From positions 186,001 through 250,000 of the forward strand of contig NZ_JAJIRP010000007.1 of NCBI RefSeq assembly GCF_025717555.1: a stretch of DNA of 64,000 bases. Reading direction: 5' to 3'. This DNA is from Paucibacter sp. B2R-40. Its GTDB lineage: Bacteria > Pseudomonadota > Gammaproteobacteria > Burkholderiales > Burkholderiaceae_C. Positions within the stretch are counted from its first letter, which is position 1. Each line of letters starts with the position of its first letter. Positions 1-39,608 of the stretch are shown piece by piece. The position numbers and the translations under genes were made by a program. The notes under the pieces are model-generated. The model was not told the origin of the DNA and did no database searches. It saw only the letters and a list, made by a program, of their open reading frames with translations.

Positions 1-293
1 TAGATGGGTGCATTGCTCAAAAAATGGAGTCCCCATCTCGACAGGCCTCAATTGGCTTGGAAAAACGGGGCTGCCCAGGCGAACGGCTGAAAACAGCTTC
101 TGAAAGCTCGAAGCTGCCCGCGCTTCCCGGTGGTCCACCACCTCGGGATGCCCCTGATTCGGCCGTAGATGCCCAAAAAGCAAAGACCGCTGCAGGACGC
201 AACCTTGATCGCCAGTCGCGCAGAATTTGGAGTGTAGCGCCTGCCGGGATCCCTCTGCTGATTGGGCATGCAGGCGGTTGGCGCGCCTATCAG
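1..293. other. left edge, no gene recognised
   Basis: Short open frames exist on both strands, but none has a family resemblance, a convincing ribosome binding site or plausible composition. The stretch lies downstream of the transglycosylase gene, which ends at 294 on the minus strand. I see no clear terminator or RNA gene here. Confidence 0.5.
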
Positions 294-31672: not shown

Positions 31673-32360
31673 GCGCGTATGCACCGCTTGCTGCTTAATC
31701 CAATAGCTTCAGCATCAGGTGATTCAGCGTTTCCACAAGTGGCCATATCGGCGAAGCCCGGTACTTGGGGTTCACTGCTGCGTTGGCCGCCTCAGAAGAA
31801 ACGGTGAAATCTGCGCCAAGTCCGTGGCATTTCGCGACACCAGCTCTGCGTTGCGTTGCGTTGCGTTTGGTTTTGCTGAATGCTTAGCAAGCTCCTCATT
31901 CGTTTGATCCGGCTCTGCGCTTGTTTCGGCTTGGCACGACCTCGGTGGTCTCCCCGCGTAGCTAACGCGGGCGCTTCTTGCCCCGCAAGGAACGCAGTTT
32001 GGCTTTACGAATCAGGCGTGCCACACGTTTGACGCTGCAACGACCGCCAACCTCTTTGAGATCATGGAGCACGCGCGGACCGAACTGCAATGAGGCCGTC
32101 GATTGCGCCGCATGGAAATCTGGCACCAGAGCCGTAGGTTGGCCCTTCGGCGGTCAACTCCATAGGCTTCCACAGCCTGCTACCTTTGTAATTTGGCGGT
32201 TCAGACAATGGGCTAGCTTGTCGGATTTATCAAATACTAGATAGAGCAATCGCCTCTTGGACCGATGAGGCCCCATTGCAATGCTGGCGCCACAGCGTTG
32301 ACTACAGCACCCAGTCATCGGTCTTCAACTTTACAGAGCAGCCTACGCTGTTGGCCCTTT
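31673..32360. other. gene-poor region with a transposase remnant
   Basis: About 690 bp between the AsmA-like gene and the terminator of the encapsulin operon. It contains the IS3-type orfB remnant listed separately, a short GCGTT tandem run near 31850-31870 and a perfect hairpin CCCGCGT/ACGCGGG at 31953-31971 overlapping the remnant's stop codon. No intact gene is supported. Confidence 0.5.
31962..32090 (-). pseudogene. IS3-family transposase orfB remnant
   Basis: Reading the minus strand from about 32088 to the stop at 31962 gives about 42 codons. They include FGPRVLHDLKEVGGRC, then SVKRVARLIRKAKLRS and a basic tail. This is the helical helix-turn-helix block of IS3-type OrfB (pattern GSPRV..L...G...S..RVARLMR...LR). 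The DDE catalytic core that should follow is absent, and nothing in frame precedes it, so this is a decayed fragment. It shares orientation with the orfA-like remnant at 39.1 kb. Confidence 0.6.
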
Positions 32361-32397
32361 AAAAAGAAAAGGACGGCTGAGTTCGCACTCGCCGTCC
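32361..32397 (-). terminator. rho-independent terminator of the encapsulin operon
   Basis: On the minus strand GGACGGC (32397-32391) pairs with GCCGTCC (32377-32371), with an internal GAG/CTC pairing in the loop, followed by a TTTTCTTTTT tract (32370-32361). It lies 48 bp after the desulfurase stop codon, the expected place for the operon's end. Confidence 0.85.
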
Positions 32398-32444
32398 TGT
32401 AGGGTTTTGCTGCTTTTGGCTTTTGGCTTTGGGCTTAGCTGGGC

Positions 32445-34295
32445 CTATCGCCCTGCGACTCTTCGCACCACCGCCGCGAGATGGTCGATCTCCTCGCTGG
32501 TGTTGTAGAAAGCAAGCGAAGGCCGCACCGTGGCTTCAAGGCCGAAGCGGCGCAGAATCGGCTGGGCGCAGTGGTGGCCGGAGCGCACCGCGATGCCTTC
32601 CTCGTTCAGCGCACGGCCAATGTCTTCGGTCTTGTGACCGGGGATCACGAAGGACAAGACGCTGGTTTTACGCAAGGCCGTGCCCACCAAGCGCACTTTC
32701 GGGATCTGCAGCAGTTGGTGAGTCGCGTAGTCCAGCAGGTCATGCTCATACTTGGCGACGTTTTCCAGGCCCAGCTTTAGCAGATAGTCCAAGGCAGCTC
32801 CCAGACCCACCGCGTCGGCGATATTGCCTGTTCCGGCCTCGAAGCGCGAGGGTGGTGGGTTGAATACCGTGCGCTCAAAAGTGACGTCAGCAATCATATT
32901 GCCGCCGCCCTGCCAAGGCGGTGTCTCCTCCAGCACTTCGCGTCGACCGTAGACGACGCCGATGCCGGTCGGCGCGAAGACCTTGTGGCCCGAGAAGACA
33001 AGGAAGTCTGCGCCCAAGCTCTGCACATTGACACGCAGATGCGAGACCGACTGCGCCGCGTCCACCAGCGTGCGAACTCCGGCGGCCTTGGCCAGTGCCA
33101 CGATCTCGTGGATCGGCGTGATCGTGCCCAAAGCGTTGGAGACATGCGTCACCGCCGCCAACTTCGTGCGCGGATTGAGCAGTTTGCGGTACTCGTCCAG
33201 CAGGATCTGGCCCGTGTCATCGACCGGAATCACCCGCAGCTTGGCGCCTTTTTCGGCCGCCAACTGCTGCCAGGGCACGATATTGGCGTGATGCTCCAGG
33301 TGCGAGACGATGATCTCGTCGCCGGCACCGATGTACTTGGCGCCCCAGCTCTTGGCGACCAGATTGATGCCTTCGGTGGCGCCGCGCACGAAGATGATTT
33401 CTTCGCTCGAGGCGGCCCCCAGAAAGCGCGCCACGGTGTCGCGCGCGCCTTCATAGGCGTCGGTAGCTCGTGCCGCCAGTTCATGCGCCGCGCGGTGGAT
33501 ATTGCTGTTCTCGTGTTCGTAGAAATACGAGAGCCGCTCAATCACCTGGCGGGGCTTTTGCGTGGTCGCCGCGTTGTCCAGCCAGACCAGTTGCTTGCCT
33601 TTGACTCGCTCTTGCAAGATGGGGAAGTCCCGCCTCACTGCCTGCACATCGAAGCCGCCTGGGGCGCTGCGAGGCTGTGTCTGCGGGGCACCGGCGCGAG
33701 ACTCGTGCGCCTGCACCTGACCGGGCTGCACAAAGTAGTAGCCGCCGGACTCATCCCGCTTGCCGCTCAGTTCGGTAGTACCAGGCTGGCTGCTGTGCAC
33801 GTTGCCAAGCAGGGCCCTCAGCGTATCCTGGCCCGGCAGACCAAAAGCTTGGGCACTGATGCGGTCTTCCGGCTCCGGCAAGGGAGCCGCCGCAGCCGTG
33901 ATCGGATGCGTGGCCTCGTTGACGAAGTAGTAGCCGCCCGGCGATGAACTCGCCGGTGCGCCCCCCGCTTGCGGCTCCTTGGGGTGCGAGGTCGAAGGCA
34001 GTATGGACGGCAGCGCCGCTGCATAGGCCTCGGGCACGCCCTGCGCCACGCCGCCCTGACGCGGCGCCTGAGCGGCATGGGCCTGGCCGGCCGGCGCTGC
34101 TTCAAGCTGCGGCGTCAGGTCCTCGCGCAAGTCCAGGTCCTGATCGGGTTTGCTAGGCGAGGTTTTCGCAGCGAAGTTCGGCCCCGGTTCGCCATTCGGC
34201 AAAGCGGAGAAGAACTCACCGGCCAGGCGGCTTAGCAGACCCACATCCGGCAAGTTGAGACTTGCGCTGTCACTTGTAGGTATCTGGATACTCAT
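32445..34295 (-). CDS. encapsulated cysteine desulfurase (family 2A encapsulin cargo)
   Basis: A 616-residue PLP enzyme that converts cysteine to alanine plus enzyme-bound persulfide. The C-terminal 400 residues (from about 215, FDVQAVRRDFPIL) are a SufS-type desulfurase: PLP Lys at about 438 in FSGHKVFAPTG and catalytic Cys at about 576 in VRSGHHCAQP. The first 215 residues are a low-complexity Pro/Ala/Gln-rich extension absent from housekeeping SufS. It carries a conserved helix (LPDVGLLSRLAGEFFSALP, residues 15-33) and the motif GGYYFV twice (about 120-125 and 184-189). Such an extension is known to load the desulfurase into family 2A encapsulin shells. The ATG at 34295 lies inside the shell gene (26-base overlap), so the two are co-expressed. 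Confidence 0.93.
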   Translation of the reverse strand: MSIQIPTSDSASLNLPDVGLLSRLAGEFFSALPNGEPGPNFAAKTSPSKPDQDLDLREDLTPQLEAAPAGQAHAAQAPRQGGVAQGVPEAYAAALPSILPSTSHPKEPQAGGAPASSSPGGYYFVNEATHPITAAAAPLPEPEDRISAQAFGLPGQDTLRALLGNVHSSQPGTTELSGKRDESGGYYFVQPGQVQAHESRAGAPQTQPRSAPGGFDVQAVRRDFPILQERVKGKQLVWLDNAATTQKPRQVIERLSYFYEHENSNIHRAAHELAARATDAYEGARDTVARFLGAASSEEIIFVRGATEGINLVAKSWGAKYIGAGDEIIVSHLEHHANIVPWQQLAAEKGAKLRVIPVDDTGQILLDEYRKLLNPRTKLAAVTHVSNALGTITPIHEIVALAKAAGVRTLVDAAQSVSHLRVNVQSLGADFLVFSGHKVFAPTGIGVVYGRREVLEETPPWQGGGNMIADVTFERTVFNPPPSRFEAGTGNIADAVGLGAALDYLLKLGLENVAKYEHDLLDYATHQLLQIPKVRLVGTALRKTSVLSFVIPGHKTEDIGRALNEEGIAVRSGHHCAQPILRRFGLEATVRPSLAFYNTSEEIDHLAAVVRRVAGR

Positions 34296-35199
34296 GGTAT
34301 TTGCCGATCTCCACATCATCCAAGAGGGCCAGTGCGTCATCGCTCTGCACGGCCAGCGAGCAATACAGCGAGATCAGGTAGGAGGCGATCGCGTTGCGGT
34401 TGATGCCCATGAAGCGGACCGACAGGCCCGGGCTTTGCTCGCCGGCCAGGCCAGGCTGGAACAGACCGACCACACCTTGGCGCTTTTCGCCGACGCGGAT
34501 CAACAAAATCTTGCTCTTGCCGTCGGCCACAGGCACCTTGTCCGAAGGCACCAGCGGCACGCCGCGCCAGGTCAGGAATTGCGAGCCGAACAAGCTGACA
34601 GTCGGCGGCGGCACACCGCGGCGGGTGCATTCGCGGCCAAAGGCTGCGATCACCAACGGGTGGGTCAGGAAGAAGGCCGGCTCTTTCCAGACCTTGGTCA
34701 GCAGCTCGTCCAGATCATCGGGTGTGGGCGCGCCGGTCAGCGGATAGATGATCTGATCCGGTGCGACGGACGACAGCAGGCCGTAATCGGGGTTGTTGAT
34801 CAGCTCGGACTCCTGGCGCTCCTTGATGATCTCGATGGTCAGGCGCAGTTGTTCCTTGATTTGATCATGCGGGCTGCTGTAGAGATCGGACACGCGGGTG
34901 TGCACGTCCAAGACCGTGGAGACGGCATTGAGGAAATACTCGCGCGGCCTGTCTTCGTAGTCGACAAAGGTCTGCGGCAGCTCGCTCTCGTCGCGCTTGG
35001 CGCAAGTAACGCGGATGTCCTTGGCGTTCTTAACCTTGTTGAGGCGGTAGATGCCGGCCTCGACCGGCAGCCATTGCAGCAGATGCACCAGCCAGCGTGG
35101 GCTGATGGTCTCCAGCTGCGGAACGGTCTTGGTGGCATTGGCTAACTGACGCGCAGCGGAATCGCTGAGCGCCAATTGGGCTTCTTGGCTTTCGGCCAT
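34270..35199 (-). CDS. family 2A encapsulin shell protein (SrpI-like)
   Basis: A 309-residue major-capsid-like (HK97 fold) protein that self-assembles into an icosahedral protein compartment. It matches the family 2A type (SrpI of cyanobacteria) by length, by the N-terminal block LSDSAARQLANATKTVPQ and LETISPRWLVHLLQWLPVE, by FLTHPLVIAAFGRECTRRG, by RVGEKRQGVVGLFQPGL and by the end HEYPDTYK. No cyclic-nucleotide-binding insertion (family 2B) is present. AGGAG lies seven bases before the ATG at 35199. The neighbours are its desulfurase cargo, a serine acetyltransferase and a rhodanese, the usual partners of this family. The family call is strong; its cellular role in sulfur storage or cysteine-dependent sulfur transfer is inferred from characterised relatives. 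Confidence 0.95.
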   Translation of the reverse strand: MAESQEAQLALSDSAARQLANATKTVPQLETISPRWLVHLLQWLPVEAGIYRLNKVKNAKDIRVTCAKRDESELPQTFVDYEDRPREYFLNAVSTVLDVHTRVSDLYSSPHDQIKEQLRLTIEIIKERQESELINNPDYGLLSSVAPDQIIYPLTGAPTPDDLDELLTKVWKEPAFFLTHPLVIAAFGRECTRRGVPPPTVSLFGSQFLTWRGVPLVPSDKVPVADGKSKILLIRVGEKRQGVVGLFQPGLAGEQSPGLSVRFMGINRNAIASYLISLYCSLAVQSDDALALLDDVEIGKYHEYPDTYK

Positions 35200-35269
35200 G
35201 GGGCTTCTCCTGGGGTGGTGGTAGGTAAATGGTTAACTAAACGTCTATTGAAAGGGCAAGCAGGCGATT

Positions 35270-36256
35270 TCAGGCTTGGGCCTCACTTTGCGAGTTGGCT
35301 TGACTGATGTGGCTGCCGGCCGGCACGCTGCGCGTGACCCAGACATTGCCGCCAATGGTGGCGCCGCGCCCAATGGTGATGCGGCCAAGAATCGTGGCGC
35401 CCGCGTAAATCACCACTTCGTCTTCGACGACCGGATGGCGTGGCAAACCCTTTTGCACATGGCCCTCGGCGTCGACGGGGAAGCTGCGTGCGCCCAAGGT
35501 CACCGCTTGGTAGATGCGCACGCGCTCGCCGATCACGGCGGTCTCACCGATCACGACGCCCGTGCCATGGTCGATGAAAAGCCCCGCGCCGATGCGAGCG
35601 CCGGGATGGATGTCGATGCCGGTGCTGGCATGGGCCAACTCAGCCACGATGCGTGCCAGCAGCGGCACGCCCAGCCCGTAAAGCGCGTGCGCTAGCCGGT
35701 GATGAATCATCGCGGTGATGCCGGGATAGCAAAGCAGCACCTCGTCGACGCTGCGGGCGGCCGGGTCACCGTCAAAGGCGGCCATCACATCGCTGTCGAG
35801 CAAGCGCCGGATCGGCGCCAGCTTCTGGCCAAACTCGCGCGTCAGCGCCGAGGCCAAATGCTCCAAATCGGCTTCCGGCTTGCCCGGGCCGGCCCGCCCT
35901 GAATGGCGGTCGACATAGCGCAGCTCCAGCAAGATCTGAGCGCGCAATGCATGCAATTGGGTGTGCAGGGTATGGCCGACGAAAAAGTCCTCGCCGTCCT
36001 GCCGCAAATCAGGTGGCCCCAGGCGCATCGGGAACAGCGCGCCGCGCAGGCCTTCAACGATGGTGCCCAATGCCTGCGCAGAAGGCAGTTCGCGGCCGCC
36101 CGGTTCGCGTGGGCGCAGCTGCTGTTCGCGCCAATCATGGCGGGCGCGGCGCAGCGCGGCGACCACGCCGCCGAGTTGCAAATCGCCGTCGGCGGGCGCT
36201 CTTGGCGTGGCCTGCAGGTCTTGCACGTTTTGCACGTTATGCAATTGCGCGCCCAT
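35270..36256 (-). CDS. serine O-acetyltransferase (EpsC/CysE type)
   Basis: A 328-residue enzyme that acetylates L-serine with acetyl-CoA to O-acetylserine, the first step of cysteine synthesis. The N-terminal helical domain is followed by a C-terminal left-handed beta-helix of hexapeptide repeats (IDIHPGARIGAGLFIDHGTG, VVIGETAVIGE, GATILGRITIGRGATIGG). Active-site His-type residues are in FIDHGTGVVIGE and RHPVVEDEVV. The length and HPGA..G pattern fit the EpsC subtype often found with family 2A encapsulins. Its ATG shares one base with the rhodanese stop (TGATG). No O-acetylserine sulfhydrylase gene is nearby, so the next step is encoded elsewhere. Confidence 0.93.
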   Translation of the reverse strand: MGAQLHNVQNVQDLQATPRAPADGDLQLGGVVAALRRARHDWREQQLRPREPGGRELPSAQALGTIVEGLRGALFPMRLGPPDLRQDGEDFFVGHTLHTQLHALRAQILLELRYVDRHSGRAGPGKPEADLEHLASALTREFGQKLAPIRRLLDSDVMAAFDGDPAARSVDEVLLCYPGITAMIHHRLAHALYGLGVPLLARIVAELAHASTGIDIHPGARIGAGLFIDHGTGVVIGETAVIGERVRIYQAVTLGARSFPVDAEGHVQKGLPRHPVVEDEVVIYAGATILGRITIGRGATIGGNVWVTRSVPAGSHISQANSQSEAQA

Positions 36257-36738
36257 CAGTCTTGGCTCCAAGGCAGGCCACGAACGCGCCAGCCGTCGCT
36301 ATGGCCGCGCTGGCCGGCTTCGTTGAGCTCGCCCTCGAAGCCTTCTTGCACATTGAAGACCCGGGTGAAGCCGGCCTTTGCTGCGGCTTCGGCTGCCAGC
36401 GCCGAGCGCTTGCCGCTGCGGCACAGCAGCAAGACCAGCGATTGCTTGCCGCCGAGCTTGGCTTCCAGCTCCCGCGTGAAACGCGGGTTACGGGTCAGAC
36501 TGGTGCCGCTGGCCCAGGGCACGGCCAAGCTGCCCGGCACATGGCCGACAAATTTGAATTCTTCGGGCGAGCGCACATCCACCAGCGTGGCCGCACCGGC
36601 TTGCACCAGCGCCCAGGCTTGCTGGGGCGGCAGGCTGCCTGCAAAGGCCAGGCCCTCAGCGCCTGCTTGTTGCTCGGCGGCTTCCAAGACTTGACGCAGT
36701 TCGGGGCTGAGCAAGGGACTTTCGAGTACGGCTGACAT
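36256..36738 (-). CDS. rhodanese-like sulfurtransferase
   Basis: A 160-residue single-domain rhodanese. The core contains ATLVDVRSPEEFKFVGHVPG, and the active-site loop has the sulfur-carrying Cys in LLLCRSGKRSALAAEA. The final RVFNVQEGFEGEL is also typical. A helix-rich N-terminal part precedes the rhodanese fold. It is the first gene of the encapsulin operon and overlaps the serine acetyltransferase start. A role as persulfide acceptor or donor for the encapsulated desulfurase is plausible but inferred. The start at 36738 was chosen from the longer open frame because the preceding residues look non-coding; its ribosome binding site is weak. Confidence 0.9.
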   Translation of the reverse strand: MSAVLESPLLSPELRQVLEAAEQQAGAEGLAFAGSLPPQQAWALVQAGAATLVDVRSPEEFKFVGHVPGSLAVPWASGTSLTRNPRFTRELEAKLGGKQSLVLLLCRSGKRSALAAEAAAKAGFTRVFNVQEGFEGELNEAGQRGHSDGWRVRGLPWSQD

Positions 36739-37014
36739 GATGTGACAGAACCTTCCCACGCCGGCCAGCAAGCTTTCGGCGGGCGCTTTGAATTGAAGTG
36801 AGAGTGTCGTCAGCTTAAGAACTTGAGGGCATGCCTGGAACTGCCGATTGCGCCCATTCATAGTTGAAAAGCGAATATCAAACCGCTGCCGGCCGGCCGC
36901 CGTGGTTCACAAGATTTCCGCACATGCTTGCGCGCTTTGCTTCCTTGTGGAGAGGCGGGCGCGCTGCCAGCATCCAGGTTTTCCCACTATCGATTTATTG
37001 AAGGAGCCTCAAGC
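36739..37014. promoter_or_regulatory. divergent promoter region, encapsulin operon / groESL
   Basis: This 276 bp region must drive both the encapsulin operon (minus) and groESL (plus). I found no CIRCE element (TTAGCACTC-N9-GAGTGCTAA) and no convincing sigma-32 promoter with correct spacing. AAGGAG at 37000-37005 is the groES ribosome binding site. Shared control of the two units is possible but unproven. Confidence 0.4.
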
Positions 37015-37302
37015 ATGTCCATCCGTCCCTTGAATGACCGAGTGCTGATCAAGCGCCGGGACGCCGAAACCAAGACCGCCTCTGGCATCTTCATTCCCGA
37101 CAGTGCCGGCGAGAAGCCCGAACAGGGCGAAGTGCTGGCCGTCGGCCCTGGCAAATTGCTCGACAACGGCGTACGCCAGGCCTTGAGCCTGAAGGCCGGC
37201 GATCAAGTCTTGTTCGGCAAGTACGCCGGCCAAACTATCAAACTGGACGGCGACGAGTTGCTGGTGCTGCGCGAAGAAGACGTCTTTGCTGTGATCGAGT
37301 AA
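37015..37302 (+). CDS. groES: co-chaperonin GroES
   Basis: A 95-residue GroES that caps the GroEL chamber. The full sequence pattern is present: [18 protein letters not shown] at the start, the mobile loop with [28 protein letters not shown], and [23 protein letters not shown] near the end. The ATG at 37015 has AAGGAG nine bases upstream; a longer open frame is non-coding. groEL follows after 36 bp. The Burkholderiales main groESL is normally similar, so whether this is the primary or an additional copy cannot be decided from the window. Confidence 0.97.
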
Positions 37303-37311
37303 GTGACTTAA

Positions 37312-38979
<1,668 letters not shown>

Positions 38980-39001
38980 GCTAGGTCATCCCTTCAGCAA
39001 G

Positions 39002-39038
39002 AAAAGGCCGAACCAAGGGTCGGCCTTTTCTTCTTTTT
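39002..39038 (+). terminator. rho-independent terminator of groESL
   Basis: AAAAGGCCGA at 39002-39011 pairs perfectly over ten bases with TCGGCCTTTT at 39020-39029, with an 8-base loop, followed by CTTCTTTTT. It lies 23 bp after the groEL stop. The A-run at its left side means it could also terminate from the other direction. Confidence 0.9.
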
Positions 39039-39041
39039 CGG

Positions 39042-39224
39042 TCAGCAGGCTGCCTTGAGCTTGGCCATTTCGCTGCGCAGCGATGTCGCCTCAGTGGCCG
39101 CAGGACCGAAGTCCTGTTCCTTGGGCTGCTTGATCCACATATCCAAACTCTTATCCGAAATCCCCAAGCGCTTGACCAGCCAAGGAAATTGTCGCGAACC
39201 ATGCCGATGTGCACAATGCAGCAC
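39042..39224 (-). pseudogene. IS3-family transposase orfA remnant
   Basis: A minus-strand frame of 60 codons contains LVKRLGISDKSLDMWIKQ and then ATEATSLRSEMAKLKA. This matches the helix-turn-helix and leucine-zipper region of IS3-type OrfA (VA..LG...SL..W.K.... then E...LR.E.A.LK). The N-terminal start of OrfA is lost and a stop follows directly, so the gene is broken. It lies directly after the groEL terminator, in the same orientation as the orfB remnant at 32.0 kb. Confidence 0.55.
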
Positions 39225-39608
39225 ACCCGATGACCTAGTAAGTTGTGGCGGTTCAAGGCTGGTTGCTGTCGCTCGGATTCGTCAGTCGTGAGGCGGCAAT
39301 GTGCCCAAAGCCGAAATTCAACTCCAGCGTTCACGGTCGCTGCAGCATTCGGTGCAGTCCTTCGTGGCTAAGAATCGGACTCACTGTGCCCGCCCTGTAG
39401 CAGTCACTGACTCGCAAAGAGTTGGCAGCGCCAATGTCGGGTACCGGGTGTGCAGCTGTCATAGGGGCCGGCGGCTCACGAGGCCCAGATACATCGAGGT
39501 CAAAAGGCTGCAGCTTGATCAGACGAATAGTCGCTGTCGACCCATCGGCGCCCGTCGAATATAGCGACTCGTTGCCATGCAACCCACCCTGTGTCGGCGC
39601 TGACTGTT
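39225..39608. other. no gene recognised between IS remnant and hydrolase
   Basis: About 384 bp with small open frames on both strands and no family resemblance. Possibly further decayed mobile-element sequence, but I cannot support a specific identity. Confidence 0.4.

Follow-up and report, generated by a model that had tools for sequence, protein, structure and literature searches.

A sulfur-free chaperonin beside a family 2A encapsulin operon of Paucibacter sp. B2R-40: a candidate transferable low-sulfur module

A widespread bacterial compartment, which we take to be a family 2A encapsulin shell, reportedly stores elemental sulfur, to go by the title of a 2024 study by Benisch, Andreas and Giessen; we know of no sulfur-free chaperonin from that work. 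Andreas and Giessen (2021, PMC8346489) had described 1281 family 2A desulfurase operons, in which serine O-acetyltransferases and rhodaneses were the most enriched accessory genes, and had proposed that sulfur leaves the shell via the rhodanese. According to the accessible part of the source, the SrpI shell and its cargo rise in Synechococcus under sulfur starvation. Here we describe a locus of Paucibacter sp. B2R-40 on a stretch of 64,000 nucleotides, the window (assembly GCF_025717555.1, contig NZ_JAJIRP010000007.1, positions 186,001 to 250,000), in which a four-gene encapsulin operon at 32445-36738 (minus strand) stands back to back with a second chaperonin pair, groESL2 (37015-38979, plus strand), whose GroEL2 protein has no methionine (Met) or cysteine (Cys) beyond its initiator. 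We consider it rather probable that the two divergent operons together make up a transferable low-sulfur module, one predicted to handle sulfur by means of the encapsulin and the other encoding a chaperonin that would cost no sulfur. The four-gene operon on its own is already known, and groESL2 is the unusual part of the locus.

The gene content of the window operon is the same as that of the operons of Andreas and Giessen (PMC8346489); GroEL is not mentioned in the accessible portion of their text, whereas the window operon adjoins groESL2. With SrpI/CyD of Synechococcus elongatus (Nichols et al. 2021, PMC8049743) the locus shares the shell family, the SufS-type cargo and the motifs of the N-terminal extension; the terms rhodanese, serine acetyltransferase and groEL do not occur in the available part of that article, whereas the window locus has all three.

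GroEL2 and the housekeeping GroEL of the same genome, encoded on another contig (C4:171719-173314), are 80.4% identical over 541 aligned residues and the checked motifs are kept, but GroEL2 contains a single Met + Cys residue, the initiator Met, compared with 22 (21 Met and one Cys) in its counterpart; it thus has far fewer of these residues than its paralogue, as expected of a sulfur-sparing protein. By a simple binomial estimate, the chance that neither residue occurs in 545 positions is about 1.2e-7 at the window background of 2.88%. An alanine at the second position usually leads to removal of the initiator Met, and since residue 2 of GroEL2 is alanine, the mature protein is probably free of sulfur altogether. 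In the housekeeping core, 14 columns hold an internal Met and one holds a Cys, and every one of these columns carries another residue, mostly isoleucine or leucine, in all ten sulfur-free copies aligned; the segments GDGTTTA, VTKDGV and TLGPKGRN, to which we ascribe the usual GroEL roles, are kept in the aligned sulfur-free proteins. The core of GroEL2 is of full length, with one residue inserted relative to 8wuc over residues 2-529, and the tail HHHEGGGF replaces the GGM-repeat tail that is common to nearly all other GroELs listed, which is not a condition of membership; the tails of the other sulfur-free GroELs are rich in glycine and end in phenylalanine. No description of a sulfur-free GroEL turned up in listings of the open-licence literature, to which the search was confined.

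Cyanobacterial phycocyanin is an example of sulfur sparing, with fewer Met and Cys residues when sulfate is short. GroESL2 would likewise resemble the sulfur-sparing response of Rhodococcus qingshengii (PMC8557817), in which proteins with fewer Met and Cys residues are used when sulfate is short; neither "groel" nor "chaperon" occurs in the accessible part of that text. Two further reports, available in part, do not settle the matter: groEL mRNA stood at 0.18-fold in Pelagibacter under sulfur limitation, and groES was among the responding genes in sulfur-limited Synechocystis.

Thirteen genomes were found to encode a GroEL that lacks internal Met and Cys, and every one of them carries a family 2A encapsulin: the window genome (G000), a sister species (G001), a member of another genus (G272), G190, G198, G209, G428, G688, Zoogloea sp. 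STD2_161, Burkholderia arboris, B. cenocepacia, B. stagnalis and Paraburkholderia caribensis MBA4. Twelve of the 13 were found via GroEL similarity; the Zoogloea protein (L032) has no internal Met or Cys, and its gene lies at a contig end, with an unsure start codon and with groES outside the contig. Among the first 83 GroELs fetched, the 13 lowest in Met + Cys (1 to 12) all came from encapsulin-positive genomes. The distance between groEL and encapsulin is less than 7 kb in seven of the 13 genomes, in two layouts, a divergent one with groES next to the rhodanese gene (G000, G001 and G272) and a convergent one with groEL facing the desulfurase end (Zoogloea and three Burkholderia); it amounts to about 31 kb in P. 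caribensis, 136 kb in G428 and 2.3 Mb in G688. Partner GroES2 proteins, sought in 12 of the 13 genomes and read in 11 as well as in the window-like G165 and G038 (G428 is left out of this count), always have one Met and no Cys; the ten housekeeping GroES proteins read have two to four Met each.

Identity to the B. arboris copy reaches 90% or more in four of the 1762 plasmid-collection records with a GroEL match, B. arboris itself being one of them, and in each of the four the encapsulin lies on the replicon that carries the GroEL. Of the next four Burkholderiaceae replicons, taken as controls, three have GroELs with 9-10 Met and no Cys, and these replicons, the only ones of these strains that were checked, are absent from the encapsulin records listed (30 of 32). 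Six other GroELs that are extra copies or lie on secondary replicons keep 9-18 Met + Cys. No annotated chaperonin stands within about 15 kb of the encapsulin on the Variovorax, Azospirillum and Methylosinus plasmids.

Several GroELs of other composition were also encountered. In some encapsulin-positive genomes (L212, L213, L216, L220, L269 and L277) GroEL is partly reduced to 8-13 Met + Cys, with a final phenylalanine in place of Met in four of the six, and these proteins are possible intermediate stages. The sister GroELs L174 (G165) and L173 (G038) have 2 and 8 Met + Cys, respectively; since each is the sole GroEL match reported in its genome, the nearly sulfur-free protein may be the housekeeping copy there. 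L107, L108 and L109 (G003, G015 and G017) represent a third type of GroEL, 61-64% identical, beside which no GroES was found in the fetched stretch.

A census of 110 genomes relates the two traits: a GroEL with at most two Met + Cys occurs in nine of 61 encapsulin-positive genomes versus none of 49 encapsulin-negative ones, a difference for which the Fisher test (p 0.004) and a rank test (p 1e-4) serve as a guide only. G165, with its two Met, is counted in the low-sulfur group of the census and is not among the 13 sulfur-free genomes; the census leaves out the GroEL-like genes of G003, G015 and G017, the genomes G507 and G541 (weak encapsulin matches, not counted as positive), and five named records of Zoogloea, Burkholderia and Paraburkholderia.

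Phylogenetic analysis addressed whether sulfur was lost once or several times. A first tree of 68 rows, in which the Met columns were kept and Burkholderia-family housekeeping rows were absent, required two changes (17 further rows were left out besides the GroEL-like genes of G003, G015 and G017, which had stood in a preliminary tree and are absent from the second one too, and tails were cut). Because shared Met losses pull sulfur-free sequences together, columns holding Met or Cys were dropped for a second tree (71 rows, 492 columns), to which more housekeeping copies were added, the Burkholderia family included. In this tree the sulfur-free copies fall into three groups, forced by well-supported branches: the Burkholderia copies lie inside the GroELs of their own family; the window group stands beside the housekeeping GroELs of its own family, a join that is not strongly supported (92/74); and G688 groups with Zoogloea, a long branch whose placement is less sure. 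None of 200 bootstrap trees united the sulfur-free copies, and a single clade was rejected (p 0.0018, Met/Cys columns excluded). At the 15 housekeeping Met/Cys positions, the replacements in the window protein and in that of B. arboris differ in eight cases and agree in seven. The second tree shows that GroEL, as judged from the aligned proteins, lost its sulfur more than once, independently, in encapsulin-bearing genomes.

The operon and groESL2 are held together in a block common to the window and its sister species G001 (Table 1). When the whole window was compared with 30 kb of G001, no further match was found beyond 31760-39275, and the 7.5-kb block of G001 sits in a context different from that of the window. 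Terminal repeats that would mark the block as a transposon were not recognised among 11 direct families and seven inverted pairs. Within the genus, the encapsulin occurs in two of 18 genomes and GroEL2, at 99-100% identity, in the same two; the GroEL matches of the other 16 are lower, and in G008 and G011 they are fragmentary or absent. G272 shows the same divergent arrangement of operon and groESL. The intergenic region between the two operons probably holds the promoters of both, and CAGCTTAAGAA and GGAACTGC within it may represent a candidate operator; no clear operator emerged when k-mers were searched across 75 upstream stretches, that of the window among them, the commonest 8-mer being present in 15 of the 75 and CTTAAG in four.

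The preliminary description of this DNA, made from the sequence alone, had rightly recognised the operon and had overlooked the adjoining groESL pair. All four reading frames are present and intact, in the order rhodanese, EpsC-type acetyltransferase, encapsulin and desulfurase on the minus strand, with the overlaps described earlier in the first pair (one base, TGATG) and in the last (26 bases). The proposed family 2A shell and its desulfurase cargo with a loading extension both lie above curated NCBIfam cut-offs: the shell scores 532.9 bits against encap_f2a (NF041162; cut-off 380; profile positions 1-295 of 295) and the desulfurase 886 bits against f2_encap_cargo1 (NF041166; cut-off 800). 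The shell also passes the family 2B model (415.6 bits, cut-off 400), but with a lower score and only over model positions 209-449 of 450, the shell part that the two families have in common, and the protein of 309 residues has a single Pfam domain, SrpI-like (340.7 bits, cut-off 22.8), and no cNMP-binding domain, which assigns it to family 2A and not to 2B. Its best solved relatives, by sequence only, are 8t6r (570.8 bits) and SrpI 6x8m (520.9 bits); an AlphaFold model aimed at the predicted HK97 fold and built from 16 close sequences was discarded (mean predicted local distance difference test score 33), and a tRNA-Glu prediction inside the encapsulin gene was judged spurious. By these profile matches the locus is a family 2A encapsulin/cysteine desulfurase operon.

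The length of the desulfurase, 616 residues, is counted from the ATG at 34295, and further in-frame starts exist upstream. A 17-nt direct repeat, D9, encodes both GGYYFV motifs of its extension; these and LLSRLAGEFFSALP resemble LARLANEFFS and AASPYYFLDG as given in the accessible part of the published work. The YYF cargo motif is present in neither the rhodanese nor the acetyltransferase of the window and, across the loci (window included), in one of 75 rhodanese and none of 70 acetyltransferase frames. The desulfurase (SGHK, GHHC), the acetyltransferase (IHPGA, DHGTG) and the rhodanese (CRSGKRS) all contain motifs that we take to be catalytic, and CRSGKRS is found in all 75 rhodaneses counted (window included). 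The window rhodanese has one Met and one Cys in 160 residues, and the desulfurase a total of three Met + Cys in 616. The terminator seen earlier behind the desulfurase, a hairpin with a T run, stands up in folding, in that none of 200 shuffles of the 91-nt stretch folds equally well; a simple consensus terminator scan did not list it.

Table 1. Features of the window discussed in the text, with their positions, strands and evidence
Feature	Position	Strand	Evidence
Block common to window and G001, holding the operon and groESL2	31760..39275		93.3% over 7520 columns
Intrinsic terminator of the operon, hairpin then T run behind desulfurase	32361..32398 (about)	-	Folding versus shuffles
Cargo cysteine desulfurase (SufS type), 616 aa	32445..34295	-	NF041166; PF00266 at residues 237-606
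N-terminal loading extension of desulfurase, about 213 aa	33657..34295	-	One LLSRLAGEFFSALP motif and two GGYYFV motifs
Family 2A encapsulin shell protein (SrpI-like), 309 aa	34270..35199	-	NF041162, PF19307, PDB 8t6r/6x8m
EpsC-type serine O-acetyltransferase, 328 aa	35270..36256	-	NF041874 EPS_EpsC, 165.2 bits (cut-off 150)
Rhodanese, single-domain, 160 aa	36256..36738	-	Pfam Rhodanese, 59.9 bits (cut-off 22.2); loop CRSGKRS
Divergent intergenic region, rhodanese to groES2	36739..37014		CAGCTTAAGAA and GGAACTGC kept in G001 and G272
groES2, 95 aa, initiator Met only, no Cys	37015..37302	+	Residue count
groEL2, 546 aa, initiator Met only, no Cys	37339..38979	+	TIGR02348, 811.4 bits (cut-off 582.1)
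Terminator-like hairpin (inverted pair I5) and T run after groEL2	38999..39040	+	Repeat listing
ZMP/ZTP riboswitch	66..229	-	45.8 bits (gathering score 39)

The earlier suggestion that the operon makes a good model because it is compact and intact does not single it out, since 64 of 80 near-relative loci share all four genes in the same order. A desulfurase match is present in 77 of the 80. Among the 16 loci that depart from the four-gene order, five are cut close to the shell gene by contig ends (L006, L028, L034, L065 and L071), seven have a rhodanese and no acetyltransferase, and one has both genes downstream. The remaining three of the 16, from Rubrivivax (L023, L042 and L077), carry shell and desulfurase genes with neither rhodanese nor acetyltransferase in the stretch. 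In seven loci (L005, L021, L035, L039, L061, L073 and L078) the rhodanese and acetyltransferase genes are separated by an additional gene of about 1 kb that looks by eye like a cysteine synthase, and L071 and L079 have a gap of equal size (about 1 kb) in the same place.

Genes near several related loci fit, by their predicted families, sulfur scavenging or the use of organosulfur compounds. The encapsulin of the Variovorax plasmid has a CysB-family regulator, a TauD-type dioxygenase and a flavin-dependent oxidoreductase nearby; TauD and a luciferase-like monooxygenase lie near the encapsulin of G209, an FMN reductase near that of G198, and a luciferase-like monooxygenase and an FMN reductase near the GroEL2 of both G190 and G209, it being understood that the Pfam families of the neighbours in these three genomes are broad and that eight proteins were picked by eye. 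Of 1462 open reading frames picked around the encapsulin and GroEL2 loci, 100, as a raw count, are long and contain very little Met and Cys; several of these look by eye like sulfate or sulfonate binding proteins.

We envision the following division of labour between the two operons. The N-terminal extension of the SufS-type desulfurase would target the enzyme to the inside of the shell, where it would take sulfur from cysteine; the freed sulfur would be retained in the shell or passed on, possibly to the rhodanese, and the EpsC-type enzyme would make O-acetylserine for the re-synthesis of cysteine. During sulfur shortage, groESL2 would allow an abundant chaperonin to be made at no cost in sulfur, with the shell managing the remainder. 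Induction by sulfur starvation, the chaperonin activity of GroESL2, the fate of the sulfur and transfer as a unit are those parts of this scheme that we infer. The wider proposition, for which we regard the balance of evidence as even, is that Betaproteobacteria repeatedly evolved a chaperonin sulfur-free in its mature form and paired with an encapsulin store, which would be swapped in for the Met-rich one under starvation while the shell banks cysteine sulfur, and that the pair is mobile as one 7.5-kb block.

A number of observations weigh against the low-sulfur module. In 52 of the 61 encapsulin-positive genomes examined no sulfur-free GroEL was seen, and any GroEL at all stands in only one of the 80 near-relative loci, 55 of which extend for 9 kb or more to either side; because of these two counts the chaperonin is to be seen as an optional partner of the encapsulin. 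Sulfur-free GroEL and encapsulin lie on different contigs in G190, G198 and G209, and the Zoogloea copy was found only because it stands beside an encapsulin. The census was non-random, with GroELs chosen by similarity to GroEL2 and mostly as the best match per genome; its genomes are related and hence not independent; a paired test on the tree comes down to three pairs and has no power; and encapsulin-positive genomes look larger than average by eye, a possible confounder. With the first tree, a single origin was not rejected (p 0.24). Neither the outer neighbours of the locus in the window nor the Methylosinus encapsulin locus shows a link to sulfur. Finally, knockout of SrpI or of the desulfurase in Synechococcus caused no growth defect under sulfur starvation, according to the accessible part of the report.

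These counts might be taken to mean that an ordinary family 2A operon happens to lie beside an unrelated accessory groESL, whose loss of sulfur came about through general drift or through selection acting on an accessory gene; the near-relative loci, the different contigs of G198, G209 and G190, and the many encapsulin-positive genomes in which no such copy was seen all agree with this. We nevertheless regard it as unlikely, given that the six other extra or secondary-replicon GroELs keep their Met and Cys residues, that the loss was complete more than once with all 13 examples in encapsulin-bearing genomes, and that the sister species share the block in otherwise unlike surroundings. The same composition could serve an oxidation-resistant chaperonin, directed against hypochlorous acid, peroxide or reactive sulfur species possibly released by the shell, as Met and Cys are the most easily oxidised residues and the partner operon presumably handles persulfide sulfur. 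The genes near several related loci fit organosulfur use and not oxidant defence, broad as their families are, and the window desulfurase and rhodanese are sulfur-poor too, which economy explains better; protection from oxidants is in our view quite unlikely.

Certain phage capsid proteins with an HK97 fold depend on GroEL, and GroESL2 might accordingly be specialised in folding the encapsulin shell or its cargo, a proposal with which the divergent adjacency in G000, G001 and G272 and the presence of an encapsulin in all 13 sulfur-free cases found would agree. It leaves the absence of Met and Cys unexplained, however, and has to contend with the 52 of 61 encapsulin-positive genomes in which no such copy was seen and with the three in which the gene lies on another contig; we consider it very unlikely.

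The role of family 2A encapsulins is still debated, with the storing, the supplying and the hiding of sulfur all under discussion. A physically linked chaperonin without internal Met or Cys provides a separate line of evidence that these loci, at least, support cells living on very little sulfur. If the proposed low-sulfur module is true, it would offer biochemistry a natural methionine- and cysteine-free GroESL, and it would show two amino acids being eliminated convergently from a cellular machine that ranks among the most conserved.

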